Below, piece after piece: positions 6,293-54,724 of a stretch of 64,000 nucleotides of DNA; position 1 is the first letter of the stretch; the number at the start of each line of letters is the position of its first letter. The stretch is from a virus. The stretch spans positions 1 through 64,000 of IMG/VR virus record IMGVR_UViG_3300035190_001334, one strand, 5' to 3'. A program made the translations under genes and the position numbers. The notes beneath the pieces were generated by a model that was not told the origin of the DNA, searched no databases, and worked only from the letters and a program-made list of their open reading frames with translations.

Positions 6293-7411
6293 ATGAAAGT
6301 CATTAACTTTGAGAAACAAAATCAAATCCAACCCCTCTTTTTGGGGGAAAATCTCGGTGTTCAGAAGTACCTCACACCACAGCACCCTAAGCTCGAAGCA
6401 TTGACCGTTCGCCAAATGGAATATTTCTGGCGACCCGAACGCCATGCAGCTAACATCGCTCAAGATAATCTTGACTACCCTAACTTAACCGAAGCCGAGC
6501 GTCACGTATTTCTTTCTAACATTCAATATCAGATTGTTCTTGACACTATTCAAGGTCGAGCAATTATCCCTGCACTCATGCCTTTTGTAAGTTGTGATGA
6601 ACTTGAATCTTGCATCACTGCTTGGCAATTCTTCGAGAACATTCATAGTCGCAGCTATTCTTTTATTCTCAAGAACGTGCTTCCACAGCCCGAAGATATT
6701 TTCGACGGTATTGATAAGGTTGAAGAGATTATTGCACGGTCTAACGACATTTGTACTCAGTACGAAGAACTTATTGGCTTTGCAAACAAATATTCCCTTA
6801 ATGATGGGCATGAGTTTGGTGCTTTTCTAGACAGATTAAAGCGCTCTATCTACCTAACCCTCATTTCTATCAACATTCTTGAAGGTGTTCGTTTTTACAA
6901 TTCATTTGCTTGCTCGTTTGCACTTGCAGAAAACAACAAGATGCTCGGTACTGGCAAGATTCTCAGTGAAATTGCGAGAGATGAAGCCTTGCATCTAAAT
7001 ATTACACAGTATTTAGTTAATTTTCTTAACTCAGACCCAGATTGGCAGCACATTGCTCAAGACCCAAAGATTCGCGCTCAAGTTGAAAGTATGTATCGCT
7101 CAGCCGTACAGCAAGAGGAAGACTGGGCAAAATACCTCTTTAGTAAGGGTTGCCTTTTAGGGCTTAATGAAGCTATACTGAGCGAGTTCATACGCTGGAT
7201 TTGCAATGTGCGTACAGATGTCATTGGATATGGCAAGTTGTACCCCGAATCGAAGTCTAACCCGATAACTTGGATTCTACGTCACCTTGGAGGTGCAGAG
7301 ACTCAATCTGCACTGCAAGAGACAGTCACCAATACTTATCTCGAAGGTGGTGGACTTGACCTCACCAAGCCATTAGATTTCAGTTCTAAAAAGAGGAAAT
7401 TTTCACTATGA
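6293..7411 (+). CDS. nrdB: Ribonucleotide reductase class Ia, small (beta) subunit
   Basis: 372 residues. The di-iron ligands expected from E. coli R2 are all visible: Asp in VLDTIQGR, Glu and His in FFENIHSRSY, Glu in ILEGVRFY, and Glu and His in RDEALHL. The radical Tyr is the last residue of IHSRSY, so this is a normal tyrosyl-radical class Ia enzyme. It is co-transcribed with nrdA (three-base gap) and ends in an ATGA overlap with the next gene. Confidence 0.97.
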   Translation: MKVINFEKQNQIQPLFLGENLGVQKYLTPQHPKLEALTVRQMEYFWRPERHAANIAQDNLDYPNLTEAERHVFLSNIQYQIVLDTIQGRAIIPALMPFVSCDELESCITAWQFFENIHSRSYSFILKNVLPQPEDIFDGIDKVEEIIARSNDICTQYEELIGFANKYSLNDGHEFGAFLDRLKRSIYLTLISINILEGVRFYNSFACSFALAENNKMLGTGKILSEIARDEALHLNITQYLVNFLNSDPDWQHIAQDPKIRAQVESMYRSAVQQEEDWAKYLFSKGCLLGLNEAILSEFIRWICNVRTDVIGYGKLYPESKSNPITWILRHLGGAETQSALQETVTNTYLEGGGLDLTKPLDFSSKKRKFSL

Positions 7412-7812
7412 GATTCTTCAACTATCGCTTTCACCAGATTCACGGCATCTCCAAAGCTAATTGGAATCCGTACACAATGACTGACTGGAAGCAACAAGGT
7501 CTTCCATTTATCGATTTTGGTACTCGCATTGATTTTGGGCAACATCATCCTGAATGTTTTCCTGACTATAACCAAGTACGACTTCGAGTTGGCAATTGGC
7601 GACTGACACTTCATTTTCATTTTGTAAACTGCGAGTTTGACGAACCTGTATGGGGCATATCAGAAACACAAAAGATGCTTTCATACTGGAAAACCTATAA
7701 AAATTCTGGCTGGTCGATTGAGGACATTAGGCAGGGTATTTCACTCTGGGATAGTCCTATGGTAACTACCGAAAAAGTCATTGAAAACATTAAGCGACTC
7801 ACAAGTAAATAG
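7408..7812 (+). CDS. Hypothetical protein, 134 aa, downstream of nrdB
   Basis: ATGA overlap with nrdB implies coupling. Rich in aromatic and His residues (LTLHFHFVNCEFDEPVWG). The C-terminal ~50 residues look helical. The family is not recognised; its position suggests an accessory nucleotide-metabolism gene, but nothing in the sequence proves this. Confidence 0.65.
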   Translation: MRFFNYRFHQIHGISKANWNPYTMTDWKQQGLPFIDFGTRIDFGQHHPECFPDYNQVRLRVGNWRLTLHFHFVNCEFDEPVWGISETQKMLSYWKTYKNSGWSIEDIRQGISLWDSPMVTTEKVIENIKRLTSK

Positions 7813-41886: not shown

Positions 41887-42552
41887 CTATTCTAGCGCAT
41901 TATAAGCATAGGCTAATTTCTCTTCGTCAGTGGCATTGCGCCAGCCCTCCCATTTAGGTTTTGTATTCCTTATTCTGCGATACAAAGTATTAAGCAATAC
42001 TTGTTCCGCTTCGGCTGCAATTTTTCTTGTTGGGTAGTATTTCCCGTTTATCATAACTGGCAAAGTTCTCCAGTGGTTCTCCCCACTAATTTTCTCTAGA
42101 GTTTCTTTAGATTTAAGCTTGCCGAGTTTTGCTATATGCTCTGGACTAAGTTTTCTACCCTTTTTCGCCTTGCTTAGCTTCTTCTTGTGTTCCTCGGTGA
42201 ATTTCTTACCCTTTTTCACAGCACTAAGTTTAGCCCTCATTTCTGGGGTTTGAATGCCCCCACCATAACCTCCAAGACAGATATTATAGGTATCGGGACG
42301 CTCTATAAATTCCTGAGTGACCATTTCAGCTTCAGCCAAATAAGCACCCTCAGCACAGGAAAATTCTGCAAGAGTAATCCTGCTAAAATTAGCTCTTCCA
42401 TATTTTTCAATAGCTGGTTTTAAGGCATAGCCACTGCCAAGATAGCGTTTGGAGTCAAAGGTATCGGTCAGTCTATGTACCCCAACATAAATCCTGCCAT
42501 TGCAAACGTTCGTAGTTTGATATAAAATCCAAGTCTCTTTATCTGTTTCCAT
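41887..42552 (-). CDS. GIY-YIG homing endonuclease with NUMOD3 motifs (cassette copy 1)
   Basis: 221 residues starting METDKETWILYQT. GIY-YIG core: RIYVGVHRL, YLGSGYALK, AIEKYGRANF, a Glu in AEAEMV, and NICLGGYGGG. Three NUMOD3-like DNA-binding repeats follow (TPEMRAKLSAVKKGKKF, TEEHKKKLSKAKKGRK, SPEHIAKLGKLKS), then a C-terminal domain KYYPTRKIAAEAEQV and WEGWRNATDEEKL. Homologous over its whole length to 53893-54672. Divergent from an RHH gene; promoter TGTTATACT lies 32 bases upstream. Confidence 0.88.
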   Translation of the reverse strand: METDKETWILYQTTNVCNGRIYVGVHRLTDTFDSKRYLGSGYALKPAIEKYGRANFSRITLAEFSCAEGAYLAEAEMVTQEFIERPDTYNICLGGYGGGIQTPEMRAKLSAVKKGKKFTEEHKKKLSKAKKGRKLSPEHIAKLGKLKSKETLEKISGENHWRTLPVMINGKYYPTRKIAAEAEQVLLNTLYRRIRNTKPKWEGWRNATDEEKLAYAYNALE

Positions 42553-42584
42553 TGCAAATATACCTTACCTGAGTTATAATAATA

Positions 42585-42593
42585 AGTATAACA
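42585..42593 (-). promoter_or_regulatory. Extended -10 promoter of endonuclease copy 1
   Basis: Minus-strand TGTTATACT with 32 bases between the hexamer and the ATG. Identical box and identical 32-base leader length as at the second cassette (53852). Confidence 0.65.
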
Positions 42594-42608
42594 CACTGTG
42601 AGTACAAA

Positions 42609-42752
42609 ATGCGTCCTGATAAAAGTAAAAGATTGAATGTGAAATTGTCCGTAAAAAGACACGAAAAATTAGTAAAGTATGCCGAGTCTCAAGATAAAGA
42701 TATGACCTCTGTTATTGAGTGTTTTATTGATTCTCTTCCCAACATAGAATAA
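42609..42752 (+). CDS. Ribbon-helix-helix DNA-binding protein (cassette copy 1), 47 aa
   Basis: MRPDKSKRLNVKLSVKRHEK starts with the basic strand RLNVKLS of Arc/CopG-type proteins, followed by two helices (HEKLVKYAESQ, MTSVIECFIDSL). Its paralog lies at 53688-53834 in the same divergent relation to an endonuclease. Likely represses the shared intergenic promoter; that is inference. The next gene starts three bases later. Confidence 0.75.
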   Translation: MRPDKSKRLNVKLSVKRHEKLVKYAESQDKDMTSVIECFIDSLPNIE

Positions 42753-42755
42753 ACG

Positions 42756-43502
42756 ATGCCAGATTTCACCTTCCCTAAAATCTCAGGTTACGAGTTCCTT
42801 GCGCCCCGCAACCAAGTGAGCTTCCCCTTTCAAACAATCTTTGCTGCTGATGACTTTGCCTTACACGATAGCTTAAACGGTTCGTATGATAAACATTTCC
42901 CCCTTTATACCCTTACCAACATAAAAAATGCAGGTAGCGACTGGCGACCCAGCATCAACCTTATCAGCGCCACAGGAACTGAAAAAAAACTAACAGGCGC
43001 ACTCACACCAATAATCTACAAAGACAAAATCAACAGGCGAGAATATGGTCGCAAAGAACAGGTGCATCCCCAACTTGGCAACAGTAAACTAGTCTTGAAC
43101 CGCATATACTACCGAGAATTTCTGATACCTAAATTTGACCCTCGATATTCCTTAATTATCGATAAAAAGTTCATCACCAACACAATTCAAAGACCAGCAG
43201 AGCAAGCTATAGACATCGGTAAAGCCACTTCTAGCGTCCTAGAGGCGTTTCCAAGAGGTAGTCTCGTCAAATACTCCAACTATTACTGGAGATGCCTTAA
43301 AGCCACTAAAGCCTACCCTACAGCTACCGATTCTGACTGGCAGCAACTTCCTGAACGACAATCCATTTTCACTGCTGACATTTACTCAATTTTTGGCAGT
43401 GATGTGCAATATTTGCAAACTTACAGCGAAGACCGTAATTTTCGACCTGAACAACAAGATACCTCTCTGGTTACATATAATGTTTCGTGCTTTTATGGTT
43501 AG
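42756..43502 (+). CDS. Structural protein with CBM5/12-like segment, 248 aa
   Basis: The first ~150 residues are unassigned. Residues ~165-205 (PRGSLVKYSNYYWRCLKATK, then DSDWQQL) match the 'G..V.Y.G..Y......T....P...W..L' layout of carbohydrate-binding modules of families 5/12. Probable surface or tail component, immediately downstream of the RHH gene. Confidence 0.65.
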   Translation: MPDFTFPKISGYEFLAPRNQVSFPFQTIFAADDFALHDSLNGSYDKHFPLYTLTNIKNAGSDWRPSINLISATGTEKKLTGALTPIIYKDKINRREYGRKEQVHPQLGNSKLVLNRIYYREFLIPKFDPRYSLIIDKKFITNTIQRPAEQAIDIGKATSSVLEAFPRGSLVKYSNYYWRCLKATKAYPTATDSDWQQLPERQSIFTADIYSIFGSDVQYLQTYSEDRNFRPEQQDTSLVTYNVSCFYG

Positions 43503-43510
43503 ATAGAGAT

Positions 43511-43609
43511 ATGATTACAATAATTTTGATTGTGTTAGCAGTGCTTGGCGCTGGAGTTAGGATTTACTTCTACAAAGAAATTTTAGATTTAATTGAGAAA
43601 AATAAATGA
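43511..43609 (+). CDS. Tiny membrane protein, 32 aa
   Basis: MITIILIVLAVLGAGVRIYF is one hydrophobic helix with a charged tail (KEILDLIEKNK). ATGA overlap with another 18-codon frame. Confidence 0.5.
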   Translation: MITIILIVLAVLGAGVRIYFYKEILDLIEKNK

Positions 43610-43662
43610 TTACTTGGATTTTGGCTGTTTGGCAACTTATGAAGTTTGTTCCTTGGAGATAA
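43606..43662 (+). CDS. Possible 18-residue micro-peptide
   Basis: MITWILAVWQLMKFVPWR, ATGA-coupled to the preceding micro-gene. Too short to judge; kept because of the coupling. Confidence 0.3.
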   Translation: MITWILAVWQLMKFVPWR

Positions 43663-43679
43663 TATACTTCTTAAGATAG

Positions 43680-43697
43680 ATATACATAAGTGTATAT
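43680..43697. promoter_or_regulatory. Palindrome upstream of the tRNA array
   Basis: ATATACA-TAAG-TGTATAT, a perfect 7-bp inverted repeat lying just before the -10 box; operator-like position. Confidence 0.5.
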
Positions 43698-43699
43698 TG

Positions 43700-43708
43700 T
43701 GCTATATT
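43700..43708 (+). promoter_or_regulatory. Promoter of the tRNA array
   Basis: TGCTATATT, extended -10, with the first tRNA base eight bases after the hexamer, as expected for direct transcription of a tRNA 5' end. Confidence 0.6.
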
Positions 43709-43715
43709 GAAAATA

Positions 43716-43793
43716 AGCAGAGATTAAGCTATGATGCGCTTCTGAGTCTCATAAACTTTTGCATATTGGGTTTGAATCCCAACTCTGCTACCA
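43716..43793 (+). tRNA. tRNA-Met(CAT) or tRNA-Ile2(CAT), CCA encoded
   Basis: Acceptor AGCAGAG/CTCTGCT, D stem AAGC/GCTT, anticodon loop CTCATAA, T arm TTGGG/CCCAA, discriminator A and an encoded CCA. Could be Met or lysidine-modified Ile(AUA); the sequence alone does not decide. Confidence 0.88.
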
Positions 43794-43796
43794 AAA

Positions 43797-43868
43797 CCGA
43801 AAGTAATTCATTGGTAGAAGTGCCGCCTTGGACGCGGAGAGTAGTTAGTTCGATTCTAACCTTTCGGA
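43797..43868 (+). tRNA. tRNA-Pro(TGG)
   Basis: Acceptor CCGAAAG/CTTTCGG, anticodon loop CTTGGAC, T arm GTTAG-TTCGATT-CTAAC. No encoded CCA. Anticodon stem has one G-A mismatch. Confidence 0.88.
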
Positions 43869-43870
43869 TT

Positions 43871-43953
43871 GGCTTGATTGCCAAAACAAAACACCCTTCC
43901 GAGTGTCTCGGATTGCTTAGTGAAAGTGGCAGCTTCAACGCTGCATCAAGCCT
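43871..43953 (+). other. Degenerate tRNA-like segment in the array
   Basis: Outer pairing GGCTTGA/TCAAGCC looks like an acceptor stem. Inside are hairpins TCCGAG-TGT-CTCGGA and GCAGC-TTCAAC-GCTGC, but no normal cloverleaf with a seven-base anticodon loop can be drawn. Two copies of CTAATATTGGT follow in the 43954-44005 spacer. Probably a rearranged or decayed tRNA, or an unusual structured RNA. Confidence 0.45.
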
Positions 43954-44005
43954 AATATTGGTTTGGTTCCCACAGGTGGTCATGGAAACTAATATTGGTG
44001 TTCAT

Positions 44006-44078
44006 GCGGCTTTAACTCAGAGGCAGAGTGCTTCGCTTCCAACGAAGAAGTCGGTGATTTCAAAATTCCCAAGCCGCT
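44006..44078 (+). tRNA. tRNA-Gly(TCC)
   Basis: Acceptor GCGGCTT/AAGCCGC, D arm ACTC/GAGT, anticodon arm CTTCG-CTTCCAA-CGAAG. The T arm is weak (two mismatches). No CCA. Confidence 0.82.
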
Positions 44079-44081
44079 TAA

Positions 44082-44153
44082 TCCTAATTAGCTTAATGGT
44101 AAAGCGTCATTCTGTTAAAATGAAAGATTTTAGTTCGAGTCTAAAATTAGGAG
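44082..44153 (+). tRNA. tRNA-Asn(GTT)
   Basis: Acceptor TCCTAAT/ATTAGGA, D stem GCTT/AAGC, anticodon loop CTGTTAA, T arm TTTAG-TTCGAGT-CTAAA. Confidence 0.93.
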
Positions 44154-44156
44154 TCT

Positions 44157-44228
44157 GGGTAATTCGCTCAGTGGGAGAGCATACGGCTTTTAACCGTACA
44201 TTCCTGAGTTCAAATCTCAGATAACCCT
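44157..44228 (+). tRNA. tRNA-Lys(TTT)
   Basis: Acceptor GGGTAAT/ATAACCC (one mismatch), D stem GCTC/GAGC, anticodon arm TACGG-CTTTTAA-CCGTA, T arm CTGAG-TTCAAAT-CTCAG. Abuts the next tRNA. Confidence 0.92.
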
Positions 44229-44306
44229 TTGTGCTTAGCTCAGTTGGATTAGAGCATTGAGTTTCTACCTCAAGAGTCGCTGGTTCGAGTCCAGCAGCAC
44301 AAGCCA
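44229..44306 (+). tRNA. tRNA-Arg(TCT), CCA encoded
   Basis: Acceptor TTGTGCT/AGCACAA, D stem GCTC/GAGC, anticodon arm TTGAG-TTTCTAC-CTCAA, T arm GCTGG-TTCGAGT-CCAGC, discriminator G then CCA. Confidence 0.92.
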
Positions 44307-44309
44307 AAT

Positions 44310-44381
44310 GCCCAAATAGCTCAGTGGGAGAGCAGTGGTTTTGTAAACCAAAGGTTGTCAGTCCGAATCTGACTTTGGGCT
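44310..44381 (+). tRNA. tRNA-Thr(TGT)
   Basis: Acceptor GCCCAAA/TTTGGGC, D stem GCTC/GAGC, anticodon loop TTTGTAA, T arm GTCAG-TCCGAAT-CTGAC. Its last base is also the last base of the convergent virion gene. Confidence 0.92.
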
Positions 44382-46309
44382 TAATCCTTAATTTCAATAT
44401 TTTCTCGCCCATTCTCCACAAAGCCGCTTGGGAAGAGCGACGGCTGTTCCCCTAGCTCTGCTTGCTGTTCAGGGTTTGGCGCGAACACCAGAAGTGATTC
44501 CGAGTCATTTGCAGCAATAGGTCTGTACCCAATATTGTAAGTACTAATTCCTCCAGCACCAAAGCTCCCTAATATCTGATTGTAGACGTTTATATAAGCG
44601 TTCTGGCTATTAAGTGCATTTGGGGGATAGAAGCCTGACACAGCCGCAAAACCCGACTGAGGTATTGTAACTGAGCTATCGTAATACCTATCGCCAGAGG
44701 ACGAATTACTAACAACTCTACGTGGATTTACTTGATAGTAGTAACAGCCATCGTGCGAAAATAGTGGCGGCATCGAGTATTTCAACACAAACTCAAAAAT
44801 ACCTTGCCTGACAGCAAAAAAGCCACTCTCAGGGTTTATTGGCGTACTCCAAGTAGTCATAGCTCTATTGGGTATGTCCGTCTTTATGAGCGCACCATAA
44901 GGGTTAGTACCATCTACGAATAGCTGCCCTTTCATTTTTTCACCTGTAAGACGATTAATACCGTAAGTGAACTGATTTTTAACTGTTGGGTAGACATCTA
45001 AAATTTTTCCATAAGCCCACCAATACTGATATCCCCAAGAATAACTAACGCCCCTCTCACCTTGCGCGTGTTTGATGTCATAAGGTTGCTCAATTTTTCC
45101 TTCTGCCATGCCCATATCAAGTCGCAGCATATTTACACCTTCCTTAGAAGCCGCTAGTACTCCAAAAGGATTAGGTCGCAACACATTTGATTCTTGCTTA
45201 TATTTGTGTAAACTGAATCTAGCTTCATCAGTCCCGTAGTCAGGGTCTTTTCGCTTAGATGCAAGTCGATAGTTGGTATTTCCGACATAAGTGGCTTGGG
45301 AGTTGCAGGTTTCAGTGATTGTTTTTTGAGTCAGGTAATTAGCTGACATTTCAGGACGCAAACACAAGTCAAGGGCATAGTTCGAGTTCCTTTTCTGCAC
45401 AAGTACCGAAGTTTCGTCAAAAGCTTGTTGGTCAAATTGCACGGAGGCATTTCTACTGCGTTTCCTAAGTACTGACTGCCCTCTGCACCAAGTAAATGAA
45501 TATGTTGGTGTAACACTGTAGGAAACAACCGTAACACCTAATCTTGACTTACCGTTACTGATTTGCTTATATCTGCTATCATCTCTCGGCGCAAACCCGT
45601 AAACAGGAATTTTGTCGTCTGAGTCGATAGCTAAAGCGCCCCAAATACCTCCCCCCAAGTATTTAAGTGACTCCAGAGAGAAATTCTCCTTGAAACAACT
45701 AGGAACTCCAGTATCATCAAGGTTAAGCTCATATACTGTCTTTTCTGTAACAGCTATTCCGTCGTTAGCTGGTGATATGTCTGCGTTGTCGATAGTAACC
45801 AAACGCCAGTCCACATCTTTTAAGCCATATTGCCTAGTAACAACAGATTTAACATAGGCAAGATGTACAGACCACCCTTCTCGGTTTCTAGAGTTTGCTG
45901 TGACGTAAGCGCGAATTTGGGTCTGGTAGCTATCACAGAAAAAAGTGAAGATTGGTTCGTTAACGCCGTACAGGTCTTCATCGACGAAAACTGAGAAGTA
46001 GTTGATAAGGTCTTCTTCTGTCTCTGGGAACTTAACTGGCGCTGGCAGAGGGAATTGGGCTAGCACAGCGCTTCTCTCTAGGTTGGCTTGAGCTATACGC
46101 AATCTAGCAGTTACTGTTTCAAGTGACAACCCTTCAAGTTTGCGAACAGTCACAAGTTTAAAGAGCGACTCATTGGATGTTTTTTGCTTTGTTCGTTTTT
46201 GTACTTTCGTATCTACCGTCGATTGGTTGGAAACTAGAAGCCACTCATTCGTCTGGCTTTCTTGTAACCAAATTTTTCCTGTGGAATCACGTTTAATAAA
46301 TCTTCCCAT
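44381..46309 (-). CDS. Large unassigned virion protein, 642 aa
   Basis: Begins MGRFIKRDSTGKIWLQESQT. The middle is beta-rich with many Tyr/Asn residues, and the C-terminus is Pro/Glu-rich. There is no recognised domain. Position between portal/tRNAs and the FANF protein, with a one-base overlap of stop and start (46309), suggests a virion protein. Confidence 0.65.
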   Translation of the reverse strand: MGRFIKRDSTGKIWLQESQTNEWLLVSNQSTVDTKVQKRTKQKTSNESLFKLVTVRKLEGLSLETVTARLRIAQANLERSAVLAQFPLPAPVKFPETEEDLINYFSVFVDEDLYGVNEPIFTFFCDSYQTQIRAYVTANSRNREGWSVHLAYVKSVVTRQYGLKDVDWRLVTIDNADISPANDGIAVTEKTVYELNLDDTGVPSCFKENFSLESLKYLGGGIWGALAIDSDDKIPVYGFAPRDDSRYKQISNGKSRLGVTVVSYSVTPTYSFTWCRGQSVLRKRSRNASVQFDQQAFDETSVLVQKRNSNYALDLCLRPEMSANYLTQKTITETCNSQATYVGNTNYRLASKRKDPDYGTDEARFSLHKYKQESNVLRPNPFGVLAASKEGVNMLRLDMGMAEGKIEQPYDIKHAQGERGVSYSWGYQYWWAYGKILDVYPTVKNQFTYGINRLTGEKMKGQLFVDGTNPYGALIKTDIPNRAMTTWSTPINPESGFFAVRQGIFEFVLKYSMPPLFSHDGCYYYQVNPRRVVSNSSSGDRYYDSSVTIPQSGFAAVSGFYPPNALNSQNAYINVYNQILGSFGAGGISTYNIGYRPIAANDSESLLVFAPNPEQQAELGEQPSLFPSGFVENGRENIEIKD

Positions 46310-47055
46310 TATGCAATAGGAATTTTTGTAGAAACTGGAGATTGTGTTGCAAATTTATTACGAATATATCTTGCGCCTTTAGTGATGCCAGTTCCATCTG
46401 CTGTGGCACGACCAGCAGCACCTAGAAATGCCCCTGTAACTGCACCTTGAGCGCCACGTCCAATCATCTTGCCAACCCGACCTAAGCCAGATGTATTAGC
46501 CATCTCTTCTTCTGACTCTCCAAGACCGCCTCCTTTAGCCAATCCCGCACCAAGACCGACAAGACTGCCAATTTTAGCTGCTCCGCCAATGCCGAAATTT
46601 GCAAAATGCTGGAAATTACCTGAAAATCCTCCATATTGACCAGTTTGGAATTGTTGTTGACTTTTCCAATTTCCGACACTCATCTTCTTGCGAACCACAC
46701 CTCCTGCATCATAAAATTCATCAGGAGCAAGAGGTTTTTGACCGTTTCTAGGCGCTTGTTGCTTGCTAAGACCTCTACCTACCGATTGCGATGCCAAAGC
46801 TTCTGTACGTGCGTCTGGAGCAGTGCCATATTTAATATTTGCAGAACGTTGGTCGCGAGTTAATGAAAATGGCGAGTTATTTAGCTTCTGATTGCCAATG
46901 GCAGCTACATTTTTCTGGTTGAAAGCATCTATAACACCTTGCTTTGTTTTAGGTTGATTAGCAAATTGTTGACCTTTGTTTTTCAAAGTGTTTAGTACTG
47001 CTTGACCTTGAGTAGCCAAGTTTTTAAAGAAGAAGTCGGAGGTTTGGTATGCCAT
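46309..47055 (-). CDS. Gly/Ala-rich virion candidate with QHFANF motif, 248 aa
   Basis: An N-terminal helical Gln/Lys-rich half (KNLATQGQAVLNTLKNKGQQ) is followed by NFQHFANFGIGGAAKIGSLV, a Gly/Ala-rich membrane-like region (GAQGAVTGAFLGAAGRATA) and a short tail. It shares QHFANF with 3070-3456 and GGAAKIG with 32228-32920. Could be an internal virion or membrane-penetration protein; inference only. Confidence 0.65.
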   Translation of the reverse strand: MAYQTSDFFFKNLATQGQAVLNTLKNKGQQFANQPKTKQGVIDAFNQKNVAAIGNQKLNNSPFSLTRDQRSANIKYGTAPDARTEALASQSVGRGLSKQQAPRNGQKPLAPDEFYDAGGVVRKKMSVGNWKSQQQFQTGQYGGFSGNFQHFANFGIGGAAKIGSLVGLGAGLAKGGGLGESEEEMANTSGLGRVGKMIGRGAQGAVTGAFLGAAGRATADGTGITKGARYIRNKFATQSPVSTKIPIA

Positions 47056-47097
47056 TATTTAATTGGTAGTGAAAGTCTTTACTCTAGTTTATCATTG

Positions 47098-50000
47098 CTA
47101 GTTTTTCGGCAAAGGTAAATTTGGAGGGAGAAAGTCAGTAGTGTACCGAGATTGACCTAGCGTGACTCTGAATGATTGAATATATCCTGAAAAATTGGTT
47201 ATGCTATAACCAATATTTAAATTTTCCGTCCAATTCATATTTATATTCTTAGTTTTGTCGCGAAGCTCTCCCTCGACAAAAAGACGAGAGTAGCCATTTT
47301 TATTCGTAAGAGCTAAATGGAACCACTTTTTCGGTTCTATGTCTTCAGCAACCATCGGACTTGTATAGTTCGGTTGGCTCTTGTAACAGCGAATGGTCGC
47401 CTCATCATTGAATGCAAATATTCTGGGATTATGTTGACCTGAAGACAAAATACCTTGCAAAATTGAATCAGAATTATATGAACTACCGCTTAAAGAGTTT
47501 ACATCACCTACTATCGGCTCTGGAACATACTCAACCGCATCTGCTGCGCTCCCAATCACTATATTGTTGCTCCGAGTAAATAATCCCGAAACGGCTTGGA
47601 TACTTGTGTTGAAAGTGCTGGATAACGAGGTGTAAACTTTATACCCTATACTTCCTGCACGTTTTTGCCACTCCGCAACAAACCCATTAGCTCCCTTAAC
47701 TCTATTTTCTGCCACTTCTGGAGATTCAATCGCTGAATCACTAGTAACCGAAACGCTATTAACATCGCCAACCAATTTATTGTCAAATCCATCTACTTTC
47801 CTTGAAAAATCACTCGTATTTGATATATCAACAACATAATCAGTAGCTCCAACAATATCGCTCCAACTAATATCAAACGATGTAGGAGTAACCGACGATG
47901 CAGGGCTTGCAATAGGGGCAGAAAGAGAGAATGTGGTCAGCGAGGATAAATAGATGTAGAACTCAATGCAATAGTCCTGATTGGCGCTCAGTGGCTGCTG
48001 AAGCGTGGCAACAATGCTTGAACCCTGACCATTAAACCGCATAGACTTTAACAAGCCAGTAGGATACTCATCTCCGACTACATCGACATTATTTACTGCA
48101 AGTGTGACCTCATACTGGCTCTCGTCAACGATATTCGTTCCAGTGGGTTGAAGCAGCAGCAATGTTTGGTTGTAGTACGGGTCGGGCAAATAATCAGGAA
48201 CCACAGCAGTCCTAGTAAGTGTGTTTGACGCTTGATTCAAAGTGCCAATTGCCGATGCGACCGTATTTGCCGCCACTGAGACTGAAAAAGTACCACTTGT
48301 GAGCGCCTGAATTTCAAACGAGTAGCTATTGTTGTTACTTGCCTTGAGAAGACCACCCACAATACAATTAGTCAGTGTCAGAGCCGCCAAACTGAAGGCT
48401 GGAGCATCTTTGTTGAGAGTAACTGTCGCATATAGCTTGTAGCTGTTATCGTTAGACTGAGTAGTGGCAAAAACAATAGTGAAAGGACTATTCTCTACAA
48501 AAACGGCTGTATTGTTGGTAGTTGCGCTGAAATCCTTGTTTGGTAAGCTTGGCTCATTGTGAATTGCTATGTTGAAGTACACTTTCTGGTCAGTTACTTC
48601 GTTTTCCAATAATAGCGTTGCAACATAAGTGTTGTACTGAGTATTCACAACGTCAGCAGATTGCCCTAGAATCGTCACTACAGGCAAGTTAGTAAGCTCG
48701 ATGATGCTATTGAAGGTCAGCGACAGTGTATTGCCATTGACAGCCTTATTTGACACGTAGTTGTCCGATACCAATGAAATGTAGTCGAGCAATTCTGTTA
48801 CATCAAGAATATTTGTAACAAGTGGGTATGGTATTAGAGGTACATCGTGTTGGTAAGCTGTGTAGAGAGCTTTTCCAACTGTGAGGCGTAAGTTCGACAA
48901 AAAGTACGGTGCTTGAGTGACGCGATTTTTGTAGTAGCCAATTTTTAGGTCGCCACTAGAGATGTTGATAACATTACCTGACTGCACAAGCCCAATTCGT
49001 ACTCCATTACGATAAAACCGATAGACATTGCCTTTTTTCGTAATTGCAAAATGAGGGAATTTCTGCTGTAAGGTGTATGCTCCATTCTCGTATGCTGGAT
49101 AAACTGGATTGTTACCTGAAAATACGTCTGTCTCAGCTAAAGTAACCCCAGAGAACAAGCTAGTAGGTAAGTCGATGCTTCGAGCCATGACTATGTTGCC
49201 ATTAACCGCTAGAACTGCAAAACCAAAACCAGACTTCTCGACAGAAAAGAGATGAGCTGTATTCTGAGGGCTAAAAGTGTTGCCGCGATAGTGAAATTCG
49301 ATAGTCCAATCCCCAGTAAGCACTAACGATGAACTTTGACCAATGGCTTCAAAATTATCGTAAGTCAGTCCAGACTGCTCTAATTGAGGCACTACCGCCA
49401 AAGAACTATCTGTACCTATAGGAAACACCGTAGAAGAAAATAACGTGTTGTTGGTGACTATTTCAGCTAGTTGATATTGGTTTGGTGAAACATCATTGAT
49501 TGTGGTTGATAACTGAAAAGGTAGTTGCAAAATTGGGAAAGATTCAGCATAAATCCGTGCAAGCAAGTTACTTTTTGATGAGCTAATGTTAGAGTCCGTT
49601 ATACCAGCACCTTCTAGCGCCTGAACATACACCACACCTTGTTTTTCGGGAGTTATGTTGAATTGGTAAGTCTGCTTCAACTCGTCAATCAAATTTAGGT
49701 TGGACAAAACGCCATTTGAAACACCTATTTTGCTAATGTCGAACGTAGTGATAGCTGCATCCCAAGTAATTGTGCAACTGAAAGCTTCGTTAATGTAAGG
49801 GCTTGAACCGCTTGTTATGGTGGGTACAGGTGCATTTTTGTTGATGACATACGATTGACCTTCAAAGCTTAACTCACCTGTGTAATTCGATATAAGTGTT
49901 GAGATGCCTTTATATCTGACCGTTCTCCTATCTACAAAATTTAAGCCTAGTTTGCCATTACCAGTTCCAGTTGTGGCTGTAACAACGTACTCAAGCTCGT

Positions 50001-52029
50001 TATTTTTGACAATGGTAGTCAGTGCCGCGCCAGCCACACCTTCTATCTGAGAAAGGCTAAAATCCGCAAGAACCAAGTTATCAACTGCTTGTGCAAGGTA
50101 AACATACCACTGACAAGTGCTGGTGCTAATAGATGGGGTAGTGACGACAGTAACAATAGCCAAAATTCGTGCTTTGGGGTGGGTCAGCACGTTAGTTGTC
50201 AAAGGCAGAGGTTGTAGGCAGTGATTATAGAAATAGTCGTTAGGGACGGTCGAACTTACAAAGCGGTTGGCATTGGTGACGCGCAAACCCTTAACACCTA
50301 AAGTTCTTGTAGCCCCTCCACTAGATGATACCCAAGGCTGATACAGACTGCCAAATTTAAGTTCGAGTTTGTTTGTCTCTTGATACAGAGTGCCAGCGTA
50401 GGCAACCGTTTTTACATTGACTCCGTTGATATAGAAGTACAAAAAGCCGTCTTCCCTTGAAACAGCTAAATGAGTGTTAGGTTCGCCAAAAACCGACGCA
50501 ATTTTCACTGTGCTGGTAGTGATATTAGAGTTGATGGAGCCATTGTTGTAGAAAAGAATGTCTGTGCTAGGTAAAACGTAATCGGTCAAAGTACTGCCCC
50601 GTCGAGTTACTAAGTTGCCAGTTTCAGAGCTAAAAGTCTTCCAATTAATGCCATCTTCGCTGCAACTAAAGCTGAGATATGCCCCAAGCCTTCTGCTACT
50701 ATTTTGTAAGTCAGAGTAAAAGCTAAAGTCAATGCTGGCAACTAGTTTGTTATTAGAGGTGAGCGACAGCAGATTAACCTTTTCAACACCATCTGTATCT
50801 GAAATATTGAGACTTAGCCATTCCTCTAAAGTTTTGTTCTGCAAAAGACCAGCATTATTCTCAAAAAGACCAAGATAAAGCTCCATAGTCCATCGGGAAG
50901 TAGATAAATTGGTCGTAATCTGCTCAGAGGTGTAAGTGGTGTTGCCTTCAAGTTCTAAGAAGCCGCTATTGAAGTTTGGTACTTTCTTGCGTAGCTCTGT
51001 GTTACTAAGTCGCTTGAAATTTGGTGCATAGTTGTAGGCATCAAACTGTAGAGGGAAATTGAACAAAGTATCTGCATAACTAGCATCAACTCTGTTAGCT
51101 ACAGCGTTTTTTGGCAGTGGTAGTGTGTAATTGTAGAAAGAGGAAGGATATCTAGAGACAGTTTTGGTGATTCTGAAGTTGGAGATGCCGCCACTAAAAC
51201 TTGCATCAATCATATTGGTCGAAATAAAACCAATCAGTGAGTCAGCAAGAAGTGGCGCTCCCAAAGAAAGCCTTGTTAGCGCAGTGTCAGCGTTGTCAGC
51301 AGCATTGAAAGTTAAGTTGTAGGAAAAAGCGTAGATGTTTGTTTGTGTGAAATTGATGTAAGTTTTTAGTTGATTAGCTTCCCTGACAATTGCGACTGTG
51401 TAAAACTGATTGACGGCTATTGGTGAGGTGTTTATTTTGAAGGTCGCACCTTTAGAGTAGAAATAAAGGTCTGTGTTCAGTAAAAATAGTCCGTAGCCGT
51501 TGGTGCTATTGTTACCAGTAGAAATAATTGGTGTTTGTCTGTAATCACCTGCATTGATTTGTATACAAGCCCCCATACCAAAAACAGTTTGAACTGGGTA
51601 AATTGTGTCTACATAAAAAGACAAGTCAATAGTGAAATTATCCGTACCTAAACTAAACCCCTCAGAATATCCACTTAGTTGCACATCACAGTAGCTTGGC
51701 TTGACTAACGATTCACCTTGCCCTAGATTAAGTTCCGCAGCCCTACTGATGCGATTTACTGCGTTTGGGATGCGTAGACATGAACTGACACCTGCAAGAG
51801 TCGGTATTCCTGTGGTTGGGTAATTTATTGCAGAATCGATGCTTGTTCCAGTGAAATTTTTGACATGGCGCTGAAAACGTGAATAATCACGGCTAAATGG
51901 CAGACCTCGGCTGTTATCGCTGGCGCTTCCTGAGATGAGCAAGATAACGTCATTGAAATATACGTCCTCGACCACAGAGTTAGTGGCATCAGCGCTTGCT
52001 AGGTATTTTGCGAGAGTCTTTCCTTCCAT
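47098..52029 (-). CDS. Giant multidomain adhesin (LamG, Ig-like, FN3), 1643 aa
   Basis: Several LamG-like units are visible, each closing with a strand such as FRITKTVSRYPSSFYNY, LRVTNANRFVS, LRLTVGKALY or FRVTLGQSRYTTDF. Two of them end in LPLPKN. Ig-like units lie at ~640-840 and ~1120-1330 (TITWDAAITTFDISKIGVSN). FN3-like pieces near ~1430-1540 carry the LVGDVNS/IVGDVNS linkers of the 899-residue protein. Surface adhesin is very likely. The -10 box TATAAT ends six bases before the ATG. Confidence 0.82.
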   Translation of the reverse strand: MEGKTLAKYLASADATNSVVEDVYFNDVILLISGSASDNSRGLPFSRDYSRFQRHVKNFTGTSIDSAINYPTTGIPTLAGVSSCLRIPNAVNRISRAAELNLGQGESLVKPSYCDVQLSGYSEGFSLGTDNFTIDLSFYVDTIYPVQTVFGMGACIQINAGDYRQTPIISTGNNSTNGYGLFLLNTDLYFYSKGATFKINTSPIAVNQFYTVAIVREANQLKTYINFTQTNIYAFSYNLTFNAADNADTALTRLSLGAPLLADSLIGFISTNMIDASFSGGISNFRITKTVSRYPSSFYNYTLPLPKNAVANRVDASYADTLFNFPLQFDAYNYAPNFKRLSNTELRKKVPNFNSGFLELEGNTTYTSEQITTNLSTSRWTMELYLGLFENNAGLLQNKTLEEWLSLNISDTDGVEKVNLLSLTSNNKLVASIDFSFYSDLQNSSRRLGAYLSFSCSEDGINWKTFSSETGNLVTRRGSTLTDYVLPSTDILFYNNGSINSNITTSTVKIASVFGEPNTHLAVSREDGFLYFYINGVNVKTVAYAGTLYQETNKLELKFGSLYQPWVSSSGGATRTLGVKGLRVTNANRFVSSTVPNDYFYNHCLQPLPLTTNVLTHPKARILAIVTVVTTPSISTSTCQWYVYLAQAVDNLVLADFSLSQIEGVAGAALTTIVKNNELEYVVTATTGTGNGKLGLNFVDRRTVRYKGISTLISNYTGELSFEGQSYVINKNAPVPTITSGSSPYINEAFSCTITWDAAITTFDISKIGVSNGVLSNLNLIDELKQTYQFNITPEKQGVVYVQALEGAGITDSNISSSKSNLLARIYAESFPILQLPFQLSTTINDVSPNQYQLAEIVTNNTLFSSTVFPIGTDSSLAVVPQLEQSGLTYDNFEAIGQSSSLVLTGDWTIEFHYRGNTFSPQNTAHLFSVEKSGFGFAVLAVNGNIVMARSIDLPTSLFSGVTLAETDVFSGNNPVYPAYENGAYTLQQKFPHFAITKKGNVYRFYRNGVRIGLVQSGNVINISSGDLKIGYYKNRVTQAPYFLSNLRLTVGKALYTAYQHDVPLIPYPLVTNILDVTELLDYISLVSDNYVSNKAVNGNTLSLTFNSIIELTNLPVVTILGQSADVVNTQYNTYVATLLLENEVTDQKVYFNIAIHNEPSLPNKDFSATTNNTAVFVENSPFTIVFATTQSNDNSYKLYATVTLNKDAPAFSLAALTLTNCIVGGLLKASNNNSYSFEIQALTSGTFSVSVAANTVASAIGTLNQASNTLTRTAVVPDYLPDPYYNQTLLLLQPTGTNIVDESQYEVTLAVNNVDVVGDEYPTGLLKSMRFNGQGSSIVATLQQPLSANQDYCIEFYIYLSSLTTFSLSAPIASPASSVTPTSFDISWSDIVGATDYVVDISNTSDFSRKVDGFDNKLVGDVNSVSVTSDSAIESPEVAENRVKGANGFVAEWQKRAGSIGYKVYTSLSSTFNTSIQAVSGLFTRSNNIVIGSAADAVEYVPEPIVGDVNSLSGSSYNSDSILQGILSSGQHNPRIFAFNDEATIRCYKSQPNYTSPMVAEDIEPKKWFHLALTNKNGYSRLFVEGELRDKTKNINMNWTENLNIGYSITNFSGYIQSFRVTLGQSRYTTDFLPPNLPLPKN

Positions 52030-52035
52030 CAGACC

Positions 52036-52041
52036 ATTATA
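52036..52041 (-). promoter_or_regulatory. -10 box of the 1643-residue adhesin gene
   Basis: Minus-strand TATAAT, six bases, then ATG; predicted leaderless. Confidence 0.5.
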
Positions 52042-52084
52042 ACTTGCTGGCGCTCATTTCTTTCTGTCTACGAACGTCAGTGAG

Positions 52085-53683
52085 CTACCCTGCATCAGTA
52101 GTAGCAATCTTACCACGCTTCTTTACCACTCCAACACTATCCTTACGGGCTGAAAAAAGTATGATGTCAGATTTGCCATTTCCCGACAAAACTGGAGTTG
52201 TCCCACTAGGGAACAAGATAGTGTTGTCAAAAGCTACCGCACCTGTATTCTGTACCAATTCGACAATAAGTGCTTTAGTTTGATTATTGGCAAGCGTAGC
52301 GGTAAAGTTAATGTTAGTGATGGTGTTGCTTATATCTGCAACTGGAGTTTTTAAGATGAGGTAGTCATAATCTGCGTCAAGGTCGATTGTGTAGTTTGTC
52401 GGTGAGGATATTGTCACGGTGTTGGTCTTTATTTGGTCGCCAAGAGCCGTTATCACTTCGTTAGATAGCTTTGCCAGTCCAACGCTTCCGTCGGGCAATG
52501 CAGGATTAAAAACGACCCATCTACCAGTGGTCGGATTAGTGTTAGGAATCAGAACTGTGTCGCCGTTGTCGGACGCAGTGGATGCAGCATCGTACTTGTA
52601 AGGTCTATTGACCGATTCAACCAAACGCACTTGACCAGACTTGTATTGCACTGAGTTCAAGCTCTTGAGCGCCGCAATGTTGTCCACTGGCGCGTCCCAG
52701 AAAAGAAGGTCTTGTAGAAGCGCGTAATTGACCAGCTTGGGGTAGATACTGATGAAACTTTGTGCCGATACTCCGTCTAGAAGCTGTGAAGATGGTGTGA
52801 CTTCAATTACCACTGCTGAACCATCGGGGATGCCCTTGTTGAGCGCAATATCAAGCGTAGGGTACTCTTGCACCACTCCAAGGTTGTCGATACCAGTTGT
52901 ATCCAAGGCGAAAGAGGTGAGGTTTAAGTATCCAATAATCTTGACACCAAAGACGAGCCGTATAGCTGGGTCAGAGGTGTATTCGCTTAGATTGAGACGT
53001 AAACCCGTCAAAGTACCGCCAGTGTCGTTCACAATCCAGTATTTGATAGGGACTGGAATGGAATTGATGTTTTCGAGTGGGGCAACGAGTAGTGTCTCTT
53101 GGTCAGCGCTGATTACGTCAATTTCGGCTAACGAAGTGGTTTCGTAGAGGCTTGCTTCTCTAGTCTTGAACCAGCGACCGCTATTGTGTGCTAACACAGT
53201 AATATTATCGACACTTTCTACCGAACCGCTAACAAATTCGTAGCAGAAACCATTGGAATTTAAAGCTGCCCTAGTTCCCGTCAACAACCCAGTAAGATTA
53301 CTGATATCTGAAGGATTATTATATGTAGAGTTATTTAAAACAGATAAAGTTACATTAGTCGGAGTAACAGGTGTTATATAGTCTGCGGCAAAATGAGAAA
53401 ATTTGTATATTACCCTACTAGTTGTATAAGTATTGGTACTAGATATAGAAATAAGAGACTCTTTTACATCTTCATAGCCCAACGTGGTGAAGGTATCCGA
53501 AGAAATTACTATCGAGCCACTAGAAGATACTGTAATACTTGCAGATGGGGATGGTACAGTATACCCAGCCCTATTTCGCCTAACAAGCCACAGATAATAT
53601 GTCCCAGCCGCAAGGCTACCTCCTCCTACTGTTGATACTGTAGGGGCTACCAGTGTTTTACTTGAAGCATAGATAGTTTTCAT
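52085..53683 (-). CDS. Tail fibre-like protein with GRWF modules, 532 aa
   Basis: The N-terminus MKTIYASSKTLVAPTVSTVG is followed by a beta domain (GTYYLWLVRRNRAGYTVPSP). Two GRW modules occur: NITVLAHNSGRWFKT and YKYDAASTASDNGDTVLIPN then TGRWVVF. The C-terminal beta domain ends with SARKDSVGVVKKRGKI. A homologous N-terminal remnant lies at 54655-54724. Follows the RHH gene by four bases. Confidence 0.72.
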   Translation of the reverse strand: MKTIYASSKTLVAPTVSTVGGGSLAAGTYYLWLVRRNRAGYTVPSPSASITVSSSGSIVISSDTFTTLGYEDVKESLISISSTNTYTTSRVIYKFSHFAADYITPVTPTNVTLSVLNNSTYNNPSDISNLTGLLTGTRAALNSNGFCYEFVSGSVESVDNITVLAHNSGRWFKTREASLYETTSLAEIDVISADQETLLVAPLENINSIPVPIKYWIVNDTGGTLTGLRLNLSEYTSDPAIRLVFGVKIIGYLNLTSFALDTTGIDNLGVVQEYPTLDIALNKGIPDGSAVVIEVTPSSQLLDGVSAQSFISIYPKLVNYALLQDLLFWDAPVDNIAALKSLNSVQYKSGQVRLVESVNRPYKYDAASTASDNGDTVLIPNTNPTTGRWVVFNPALPDGSVGLAKLSNEVITALGDQIKTNTVTISSPTNYTIDLDADYDYLILKTPVADISNTITNINFTATLANNQTKALIVELVQNTGAVAFDNTILFPSGTTPVLSGNGKSDIILFSARKDSVGVVKKRGKIATTDAG

Positions 53684-53687
53684 TATC

Positions 53688-53834
53688 TTATTTTAACACT
53701 ACCACTTCAGGCAAAGAATCAATCCAGTCTTCAAAAAGTACCGTCATGGCTCTGTCTCTGGACTCGGCGTAATTTTTAAGCTTTGTCATGCGTTTCTCTG
53801 ACAAAGTGGCGTTGAATCTCTTATCTTTACTCAT
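53688..53834 (-). CDS. Ribbon-helix-helix DNA-binding protein (cassette copy 2), 48 aa
   Basis: MSKDKRFNATLSEKRMTKLK starts with strand RFNATLS, followed by helices KLKNYAESRD and MTVLFEDWIDSLPEV. About half its residues match the RHH protein at 42609-42752, including YAES.D and IDSLP. It is divergent from the endonuclease and directly upstream of a structural gene, exactly as in copy 1. Confidence 0.75.
   Translation of the reverse strand: MSKDKRFNATLSEKRMTKLKNYAESRDRAMTVLFEDWIDSLPEVVVLK
53690..53698 (-). promoter_or_regulatory. Extended -10 promoter of gene 53683
   Basis: Minus-strand TGTTAAAAT overlapping the RHH stop codon; six bases to the ATG. Confidence 0.5.
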
Positions 53835-53851
53835 GATTAGTGTCAATGTTA

Positions 53852-53860
53852 TGTTATACT
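53852..53860 (+). promoter_or_regulatory. Extended -10 promoter of endonuclease copy 2
   Basis: TGTTATACT, 32 bases before ATG 53893; same box and spacing as cassette copy 1. Confidence 0.65.
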
Positions 53861-53892
53861 TACTATTATATCCTAGAAAACGATATTACGCA

Positions 53893-54672
53893 ATGACAAA
53901 AGATAAAGATACATGGATTTTGTATAAAACTGAAAATTTGGTAAATCATAGAAGTTATGTTGGAGTGCATAAACTTGCCGACAACCTACGCTCTAAGAAT
54001 TACCTTGGTAGTGGAAATAATATAAAGACAGCTATAAAGAAATACGGAAGAGAAAATTTCATTAGAACTACACTTGCAGAGTTTGCTTGTGCCGAAGACG
54101 CTTACTCGGCTGAAGAAAAGATGGTAACTGAGGAATTTATTAAACGTAAAGATACTTATAACATAAGTCTTGGTGGTCGTGGTAGTTCCAAACATACGGA
54201 AGAAGCTAAGGCGAAAATTGCTATTTCACACAAGGGGAGAGAGTTTACGGAGCAACATAGGGCAAAAATCAGCGCGTCAGCAAAAGGTAGAAAGATGACT
54301 GAAGAAACAAAAATGAAAATTGCGATTGCAAACACAGGAAAAAAGCATACAGAAGAAACAATGAAAAAACTTCGAGGTAGAATTGTCAGCGAAGAGACTA
54401 GAGCAAAAAGTGCGGAGATATTTAGGGGTAAAACGCACACAGAGGAGGCAAAAAGTAGGATGAGCGAGGCAGCTAAACTTAGAACTGGTGCTAAAAATCA
54501 TTCAAGTATAGCAGTAGTGATAAATGGTAAATATTATGAAAATGCACATATAGCATCCCCCTTAGAACAAACACATTATCAAACTATAGTAAGTAGACTA
54601 AAATCGCCAACAGCTAAATGGTCTGAATGGCGCTATGCTACTGAAGAGGAAAAATTGTCCCACCAGATGTAG
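53893..54672 (+). CDS. GIY-YIG homing endonuclease with NUMOD3 motifs (cassette copy 2)
   Basis: 259 residues starting MTKDKDTWILYKTENL. Core: RSYVGVHKL, YLGSGNNIK, AIKKYGRENF, AEEKMV and NISLGGRGS. About five NUMOD3-like repeats follow (e.g. TEEAKAKIAISHKGREF, TEETKMKIAIANTGKKH), two more than copy 1. Homology to copy 1 ends at EEKL; the last four residues (SHQM) and stop are read from antisense of a structural-gene remnant, marking the insertion edge. The longer frame upstream starts before the promoter and is not used. Confidence 0.88.
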   Translation: MTKDKDTWILYKTENLVNHRSYVGVHKLADNLRSKNYLGSGNNIKTAIKKYGRENFIRTTLAEFACAEDAYSAEEKMVTEEFIKRKDTYNISLGGRGSSKHTEEAKAKIAISHKGREFTEQHRAKISASAKGRKMTEETKMKIAIANTGKKHTEETMKKLRGRIVSEETRAKSAEIFRGKTHTEEAKSRMSEAAKLRTGAKNHSSIAVVINGKYYENAHIASPLEQTHYQTIVSRLKSPTAKWSEWRYATEEEKLSHQM

Positions 54673-54724
54673 TTGTGATGGTCGGTACAGGTAAGGTCTT
54701 TGACGCTGCGTAGGTAGTCTTCAT
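54655..54724 (-). pseudogene. 5' remnant of a tail-fibre gene at the cassette edge
   Basis: Read on the minus strand: MKTTYAASKTLPVPTITTTS, then GGTI, closely resembling the start of the intact gene 52085-53683 (MKTIYASSKTLVAPTVSTVG). After ~23 codons it runs into the 3' end of the endonuclease gene. It begins two bases after the stop of 54727-54897. Best read as a gene cut by the cassette. Confidence 0.65.

Follow-up and report, generated by a model that had tools for sequence, protein, structure and literature searches.

The window analysed here is a 64,000-nt stretch of DNA (IMG/VR virus record IMGVR_UViG_3300035190_001334, positions 1 to 64,000 of that record) from a cyanophage genome. 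It contains two copies of a cassette in which the gene of a free-standing GIY-YIG endonuclease lies back to back with that of a minimal ribbon-helix-helix (RHH) protein, a putative repressor of the CopG/Arc type, with a presumed divergent promoter of 54-60 bp between them. We consider it likely that each cassette is a self-contained homing unit and that its RHH autorepressor belongs to a module that two unrelated families of mobile nucleases carry. Judging from sequence comparison and structure modelling, the RHH protein probably holds the endonuclease in check. The linkage of the two genes, their co-arrival, their insertion and loss, the selection, the predicted fold and the promoter anatomy described below were obtained by comparison and computation.

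Two cassettes in a cyanophage genome

By cassette and gene order the nearest named phages are the Pseudanabaena phages PA-SR01 and Pam2; a further close relative is the phage record G016. Sites of cassette insertion are named by the protein length of the adjoining gene. The two cassettes of the window comprise the following features:

41887-42552, minus strand: endonuclease of cassette A, GIY-YIG/NUMOD3 homing type, 221 aa (open reading frame; NUMOD3; PHROG 314 homing endonuclease, E 3.7e-47)
42609-42752, plus strand: RHH gene of cassette A, 47 aa, RLN type (open reading frame; AlphaFold pLDDT 90, predicted CopG/Arc/ParG-like fold)
42756-43502, plus strand: site S248, occupied; 248-aa structural-region gene directly 3' of the cassette A RHH gene (orthologous PA-SR01 site empty)
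53688-53834, minus strand: RHH gene of cassette B, 48 aa, RFN type (open reading frame; RHH comparison)
53893-54672, plus strand: endonuclease of cassette B, GIY-YIG/NUMOD3, 259 aa, its final codons being antisense of the native gene (domain matches; comparison with G016)
52085-53683, minus strand: site S532; 532-aa structural-region gene 3' of the cassette B RHH gene, with a hybrid 5' end (comparison with G016)

A preliminary description of this DNA, made from the letters alone, had noted the same arrangement at two places, with an endonuclease divergent from an RHH protein of about 48 residues, and our analysis agrees with it in all these respects. The RHH gene was said to end 3-4 bases upstream of a structural gene: in cassette A the ATG of the S248 gene (42756) lies 3 nt past the RHH stop, and in cassette B 4 nt separate the RHH stop from the ATG of the 532-aa gene (53683). 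Both proteins are homologous between the cassettes, as had been claimed, with 44% identity over 258 aligned positions for the endonucleases and 55% over 42 aa for the RHH proteins. For endonuclease B the list of open reading frames offered a start at 53788 (294 aa), which we rejected as upstream read-through in favour of the 259 aa from 53893.

The box TGTTATACT is found 32 nt before both endonuclease ATGs (42593-42585 on the minus strand and 53852-53860 on the plus strand), exactly as described before. By itself the recurrence of this 9-mer is not significant (3 matches in the window versus 0.67 expected). The argument therefore rests on the extended 19-nt box TGTTATACTTAYTATTATA, whose only occurrences in the window are these two (expected number 0.12 with up to 3 mismatches), and on a comparison of 21 cassettes given below. 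In the whole 145-kb record (G000) no further copy of either the endonuclease or the RHH gene was found.

NUMOD3 was detected with Pfam in both endonucleases (2 and 5 stretches), the GIY-YIG part staying below the Pfam threshold in each. Both proteins matched PHROG 314, 'homing endonuclease' (E 4e-47 for A, 2e-44 for B), and across 19 homologues Y11, Y22, G24, E74 and N90 were invariant. A catalytic domain with conserved residues, NUMOD3 repeats and presence/absence polymorphism of the sites place both, as far as sequence can tell, in the class of free-standing, Seg-like GIY-YIG endonucleases.

Linkage of the two genes across phage genomes

We ran profiles of both proteins against 28 phage records and obtained 31 RHH matches and 41 endonuclease loci (joined from two profile searches). 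An endonuclease was present on the opposite strand in 28 of the 31 RHH loci, at a distance of 55-71 bp by match ends. The adjacency of GIY-YIG/NUMOD3 and RHH genes, which the preliminary description had proposed to look for in phage genomes, is thus recurrent.

One of the three exceptions is a deletion remnant in record G007 (locus L015, 11426-11587, minus strand). Here the stop of the upstream gene is fused to the C-terminal half of the RHH gene, which leads into a 632-aa gene; the deletion removed the endonuclease and the RHH N-terminus. The other two RHH genes, which belong to this family or a related one, lie in record G018 (locus L033, 1250-2266 and 4532-5473) and are divergent from Phage_pRha genes; a third pRha gene is located at 7088-7804. 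These pairs suggest that nucleases are not the only partners of the RHH module. Endonucleases that carry an RHH partner were also considered as a single clade, which we rejected: the tree requires 6 changes of RHH status versus 7.1 in shuffles, with most deep forks unsupported, so that RHH status is not clustered on it. As a side observation, the RHH gene of Pseudanabaena phage Pam2 (ON014754.1, 80698-80841) is absent from the GenBank annotation.

Insertion sites and the history of copy B

Cassettes were found at five different genes, S248, S532, S632, S135 and S77. At S248 and S532 phage PA-SR01 is empty, and the empty sites lack both genes; S532 is without a cassette in G016, PA-SR01 and G009. 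That endonuclease and RHH gene arrive together is accordingly well supported by these sequence comparisons, in line with the earlier view of the pair as one mobile unit. In 21 of 21 cassettes a phage gene in the same direction follows the RHH stop at a distance of -1 to 25 nt, often as a TAATG overlap. Three further features of the window bear on insertion:

47055-47098, no strand: empty S135 cassette position (occupied in PA-SR01, G003, G005, G008 and G009)
54658-54724, minus strand: 67-bp relic left from the former 5' end of the 532-aa gene, MKTTYAASKTLPVPTITTTSGGTI (92.5% identical to the intact gene start in G016)
53243-53683, minus strand: replaced tract at the 5' end of the 532-aa gene, about 440 bp (about 53-66% identical to G016; adjoining flank 94%)

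The ends of copy B were obtained, as had been recommended, by comparison with a relative lacking the cassette. Over the 6 kb adjoining S532, G016 (L088) is 94% identical to the window and has no cassette. On its endonuclease side the cassette is joined to the old 532-aa gene around codon 24, at a shared TCCCA (microhomology); the last codons of endonuclease B run antisense to that gene. The high identity of the relic to G016 and the low identity of the 5' tract imply that cassette B brought a foreign gene 5' end along on its RHH side. Reconstructed in this way, copy B appears to have entered the 5' end of the structural gene, left a relic and replaced about 440 bp. The replaced tract is consistent with homing into a cassette-less allele. 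Both cassettes had been described as inserted upstream of structural genes; they do adjoin such genes, although copy B went into the 5' end of its gene rather than upstream of it.

Two readings of the RHH gene as a phage gene can be weighed here. If it were an ordinary member of the structural operon, its adjacency to the endonuclease would be coincidental, as its co-directional position close to the structural gene would allow. This is scarcely credible: it is contradicted by the linkage and the empty sites, since relatives' empty sites lack RHH and the 28 phage records contain no full-length RHH gene without endonuclease at these genes. The preliminary description had named this very arrangement as one that would refute it, and the C-terminal remnant in G007 is all that comes near to it. 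Alternatively, RHH might be a phage regulator that times the structural genes, with the endonuclease merely inserted beside it. It always lies upstream of structural-region genes, and in another phage pRha genes have similar RHH genes as divergent neighbours. We regard this as quite unlikely nonetheless, given that cassette-less sites without RHH keep their structural genes (PA-SR01 S248 and S532, G016 S532, S135 of the window) and that RHH occurs at five unrelated genes, almost always with an endonuclease.

Fold and selection of the RHH protein

The AlphaFold model (pLDDT 90) has an extended N-terminus followed by two helices; the N-terminal strand is not formed in it because a monomer was modelled. 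Foldseek returned ParG, ORF56, PutA-RHH, AmrZ and CopG as top PDB matches, and Arc also matched. Almost all matches were RHH repressors, yet none had E < 0.001, which is unsurprising at 47 residues. A CopG/Arc/ParG-like fold is thus predicted.

Between pairs of RHH genes the ratio of nonsynonymous to synonymous divergence (dN/dS) was about 0.01-0.13, at dS values that were mostly close to 1 or higher, and the endonuclease dN was several-fold above that of RHH. These sequence comparisons indicate that RHH evolves under strong purifying selection. RHH identity correlated with intergenic identity (r 0.61) and hardly with endonuclease identity (0.30, 0.18). Recent swapping of the RHH/promoter half between endonucleases was considered as an explanation. 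Because synonymous divergence approaches or exceeds saturation in most pairs, this idea has lost ground to that of slow RHH evolution.

RHH proteins are common antitoxins (PMC2812701) and a nuclease without a partner could be harmful, such that the two genes might form a toxin-antitoxin-like pair in which RHH neutralises the nuclease by protein binding. We hold this to be very unlikely. The phage RHH protein is the bare DNA-binding domain of 47-48 aa with no toxin-binding tail beyond it, the genes are divergent and do not form one operon, endonucleases also occur without RHH, and the same RHH type accompanies nucleases of unrelated folds, GIY-YIG and TnpB (see below). A classification as type II toxin-antitoxin system, for which a toxin-binding tail and a co-directional operon are expected, was rejected for the same reasons.

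Overlapping divergent promoters

We compared the promoter regions of 21 cassettes from 15 records (one pair being identical; G016 was read by eye). The start-to-start intergenic region measured 54-60 bp in all 21 and always opened with CATTG, the RHH -35 element taking its TTG from the complement of the endonuclease start codon. The RHH promoter consisted of a TTGnnn -35, a spacing of 16-17 nt and TATAAT or TATACT (TATA[AC]T) in 21 of 21. On the opposite strand, the endonuclease element TGNTATANT was found 30-34 nt before the endonuclease ATG throughout the set. In the window these elements are:

42552-42580, plus strand: RHH promoter of cassette A, -35 TTGCAA and -10 TATAAT separated by a 17-nt spacer, the -35 falling on the endonuclease start codon
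42585-42593, minus strand: extended -10 of endonuclease A, TGTTATACT
42575-42608, no strand: proposed RHH operator region of cassette A, from both -10 elements to the RHH start (conserved intergenic region; putative binding)
53865-53893, minus strand: RHH promoter of cassette B, -35 TTGCGT and -10 TATAAT separated by a 17-nt spacer, the -35 falling on the endonuclease start
53852-53860, plus strand: extended -10 of endonuclease B, TGTTATACT
53835-53870, no strand: proposed RHH operator region of cassette B, from both -10 elements to the RHH start (conserved intergenic region; putative binding)

With the two -10 boxes close together on opposite strands, the promoters overlap. Since the RHH -35 covers the endonuclease start codon and the endonuclease extended -10 lies immediately upstream of the RHH gene, mutual exclusion of polymerases is expected. 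The RHH type (RLN or RFN, in the presumed strand) agreed with one operator letter in 21 of 21 cassettes. A palindromic operator was rejected for the phages: its half-elements double as the two -10 boxes, so that symmetry is indistinguishable from promoter constraint.

Taken with the modelled fold, the purifying selection and, in the TnpB relatives described next, repeats and strand/operator covariation, the overlapping promoters strongly suggest that RHH represses the shared promoter.

RHH relatives beside TnpB in cyanobacteria

Contigs of GTDB genomes were scanned with the RHH profile, not conditioned on neighbours. This yielded 34 loci, all cyanobacterial by title. A divergent partner aligning with TnpB was present in 27 of them (one a fragment), and TnpB domains were confirmed in five partners tested with Pfam and one with NCBIfam. 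RHH homologues thus stand, by sequence similarity, beside TnpB in filamentous cyanobacteria. In Scytonema NIES-4073, 61 RHH matches were counted; of 40 copies inspected, 28 had a divergent partner of this kind, either a hit to the TnpB profile 62-107 bp away on the other strand (24 copies) or a TnpB-like protein (4 copies), and solo RHH genes were among the remainder. Two pairs of copies were 99.7-100% identical over 1,578 and 1,575 bp spanning TnpB, RHH and short flanks, from which it follows that RHH moves with TnpB. That the same RHH family appears to accompany TnpB goes beyond the preliminary description. The window nuclease is GIY-YIG and the cassettes are therefore not TnpB units; TnpB was seen only beside the cyanobacterial relatives.

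In the TnpB units, the stretch from the -10 to the RHH start contains direct repeats spaced by 11 bp (for 50 non-redundant units z is 11.1, a value computed against mononucleotide shuffles and inflated by shared ancestry), the repeat sequence differing from unit to unit. Identity of the N-terminal strand predicts operator similarity beyond helix identity (partial r 0.32, permutation maximum 0.15). An 11-bp spacing is known from Arc. For RelB, RHH dimers bind neighbouring half-sites on one DNA face (PMC2812701).

As a separate observation, solo RHH copies in Scytonema (L104, L105, L107, L128-L130) have repeats upstream and no TnpB; of these, L128 and L129 resemble non-autonomous elements, being nearly identical over 612 bp.

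The cyanobacterial loci also bear on the idea that RHH mainly serves to repair the invaded gene, as a promoter and translated leader coupled to the displaced gene, with DNA binding being incidental. The tight coupling to the downstream gene in all 21 phage cassettes and the G007 remnant, which keeps the RHH C-terminal half before the structural gene after loss of the endonuclease and the N-terminus, agree with it. However, strong purifying selection acts on the RHH protein, some endonucleases at the same genes do without RHH, and cyanobacterial RHH usually has no closely coupled gene downstream, yet keeps the divergent nuclease and the 11-bp repeats. We therefore consider it unlikely.

A model of self-limited homing

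The homing unit with its own repressor, which we favour, would work as follows. A cassette entering a cell that lacks RHH protein would allow a brief burst of endonuclease, by which cassette-less alleles would be cut, and repair of the cut allele would copy the cassette in. Accumulating RHH would then shut off the endonuclease and itself. Polymerase at one promoter, or RHH dimers between the two, would exclude polymerase from the other. As RHH runs straight into the structural gene, its promoter and reading frame would re-supply expression to the gene displaced at its 5' region. Cleavage by the endonuclease, binding and repression by RHH and the timing of these steps are what we infer in this scheme. 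In cyanobacteria, the same RHH family would serve TnpB, a different mobile nuclease.

Several points weigh against this model. No RHH gene accompanies 13 of the endonuclease loci, and some of these lie at genes that elsewhere have a cassette (S248 in G019, S532 in G022). Several of these endonucleases (L048, L092, L050, L035) share a different promoter motif, approximately TTTTACACCATTATATCTTAGAATATA in the clearest two, and are divergent from the invaded gene. RHH is thus not essential for mobility and, considering the 28 paired loci among 31, is a frequent and not an obligatory partner. The RHH sequence is only weakly similar to known RHH families, the best PDB profile match being ParG at E 0.023. 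In phage intergenic regions the 11-bp periodicity is moderate (z 3.2) and a lag of 14 reaches z 3.8, such that the exact phage operator stays a candidate region. The agreement of RHH type and operator letter in phages could be simple linkage.

We see even chances for a wider generalisation, in which one minimal RHH family would be a portable regulatory partner of selfish nucleases, GIY-YIG in cyanophages and RNA-guided TnpB in cyanobacteria. Operators and DNA-contact strands would co-diversify, so that dozens of copies per genome (61 in Scytonema NIES-4073) would be independently regulated.

Other features of the window

A 339-aa protein (724-1743) with repeated zinc-ribbon-like CPIC motifs overlaps the end of a polymerase-like gene and is perhaps another mobile endonuclease. 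Five tRNA genes (43797-44381) lie between the S248 gene and a 642-aa gene, in a stretch whose length differs among relatives. A 248-aa gene (46309-47055) is absent at the same place in the otherwise 90-94% identical G016, which has a 7-bp gap there.

Comparison with known systems

To persist, homing endonucleases and TnpB must cut often enough to spread and yet spare the host. A dedicated repressor common to two unrelated nuclease families would, if true, offer a general explanation of how selfish nucleases set their own dose. The cassettes make this question testable: a repressor and operator region can be proposed for them, endonucleases naturally lacking RHH at the same genes can serve as controls, and the pre-insertion state is preserved in a closely related phage (G016). 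Copy B illustrates one route by which a homing unit may get into the 5' end of a structural gene with the reading frame re-supplied. A TnpB or homing endonuclease with an RHH/CopG partner was not found described in the open-access literature (subscription papers and preprints lay outside this scope), and novelty is thus provisional.

In length, predicted fold and autoregulatory gene position the cassette RHH resembles CopG, Arc and ParG, which, unlike it, are not known to be linked to a mobile nuclease. In the available part of the T4 review (PMC2988022), free-standing endonucleases use nearby phage promoters or their own, are oriented with the surrounding genes except for segD, and are mentioned without a separate repressor gene. 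Like the T4 seg genes described there (PHROG 314/SegE-like), the cassette endonucleases are free-standing GIY-YIG proteins with NUMOD3 that lie between phage genes, are absent in relatives and have a replaced tract alongside; unlike them, they are mostly antisense to the invaded gene and have a divergent RHH gene. According to the same part of the review, I-TevI represses itself. The proposed arrangement would likewise limit a GIY-YIG endonuclease gene by a repressor on its own promoter, but this repressor would be a separate RHH protein, re-usable with endonucleases of different specificity. With RelBE and other RHH toxin-antitoxin loci (PMC2812701) the cassettes share a (here proposed) RHH autorepressor paired with a nuclease, and differ from RelBE by the missing toxin-binding tail, the divergent genes and a homing-type DNA endonuclease in place of an RNase toxin. 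Closest in the RHH family itself are the IS200/IS605-type TnpB units of cyanobacteria, where the same RHH family is divergent from TnpB inside a duplicated unit, whereas the cassettes of the window carry a GIY-YIG nuclease and no TnpB.

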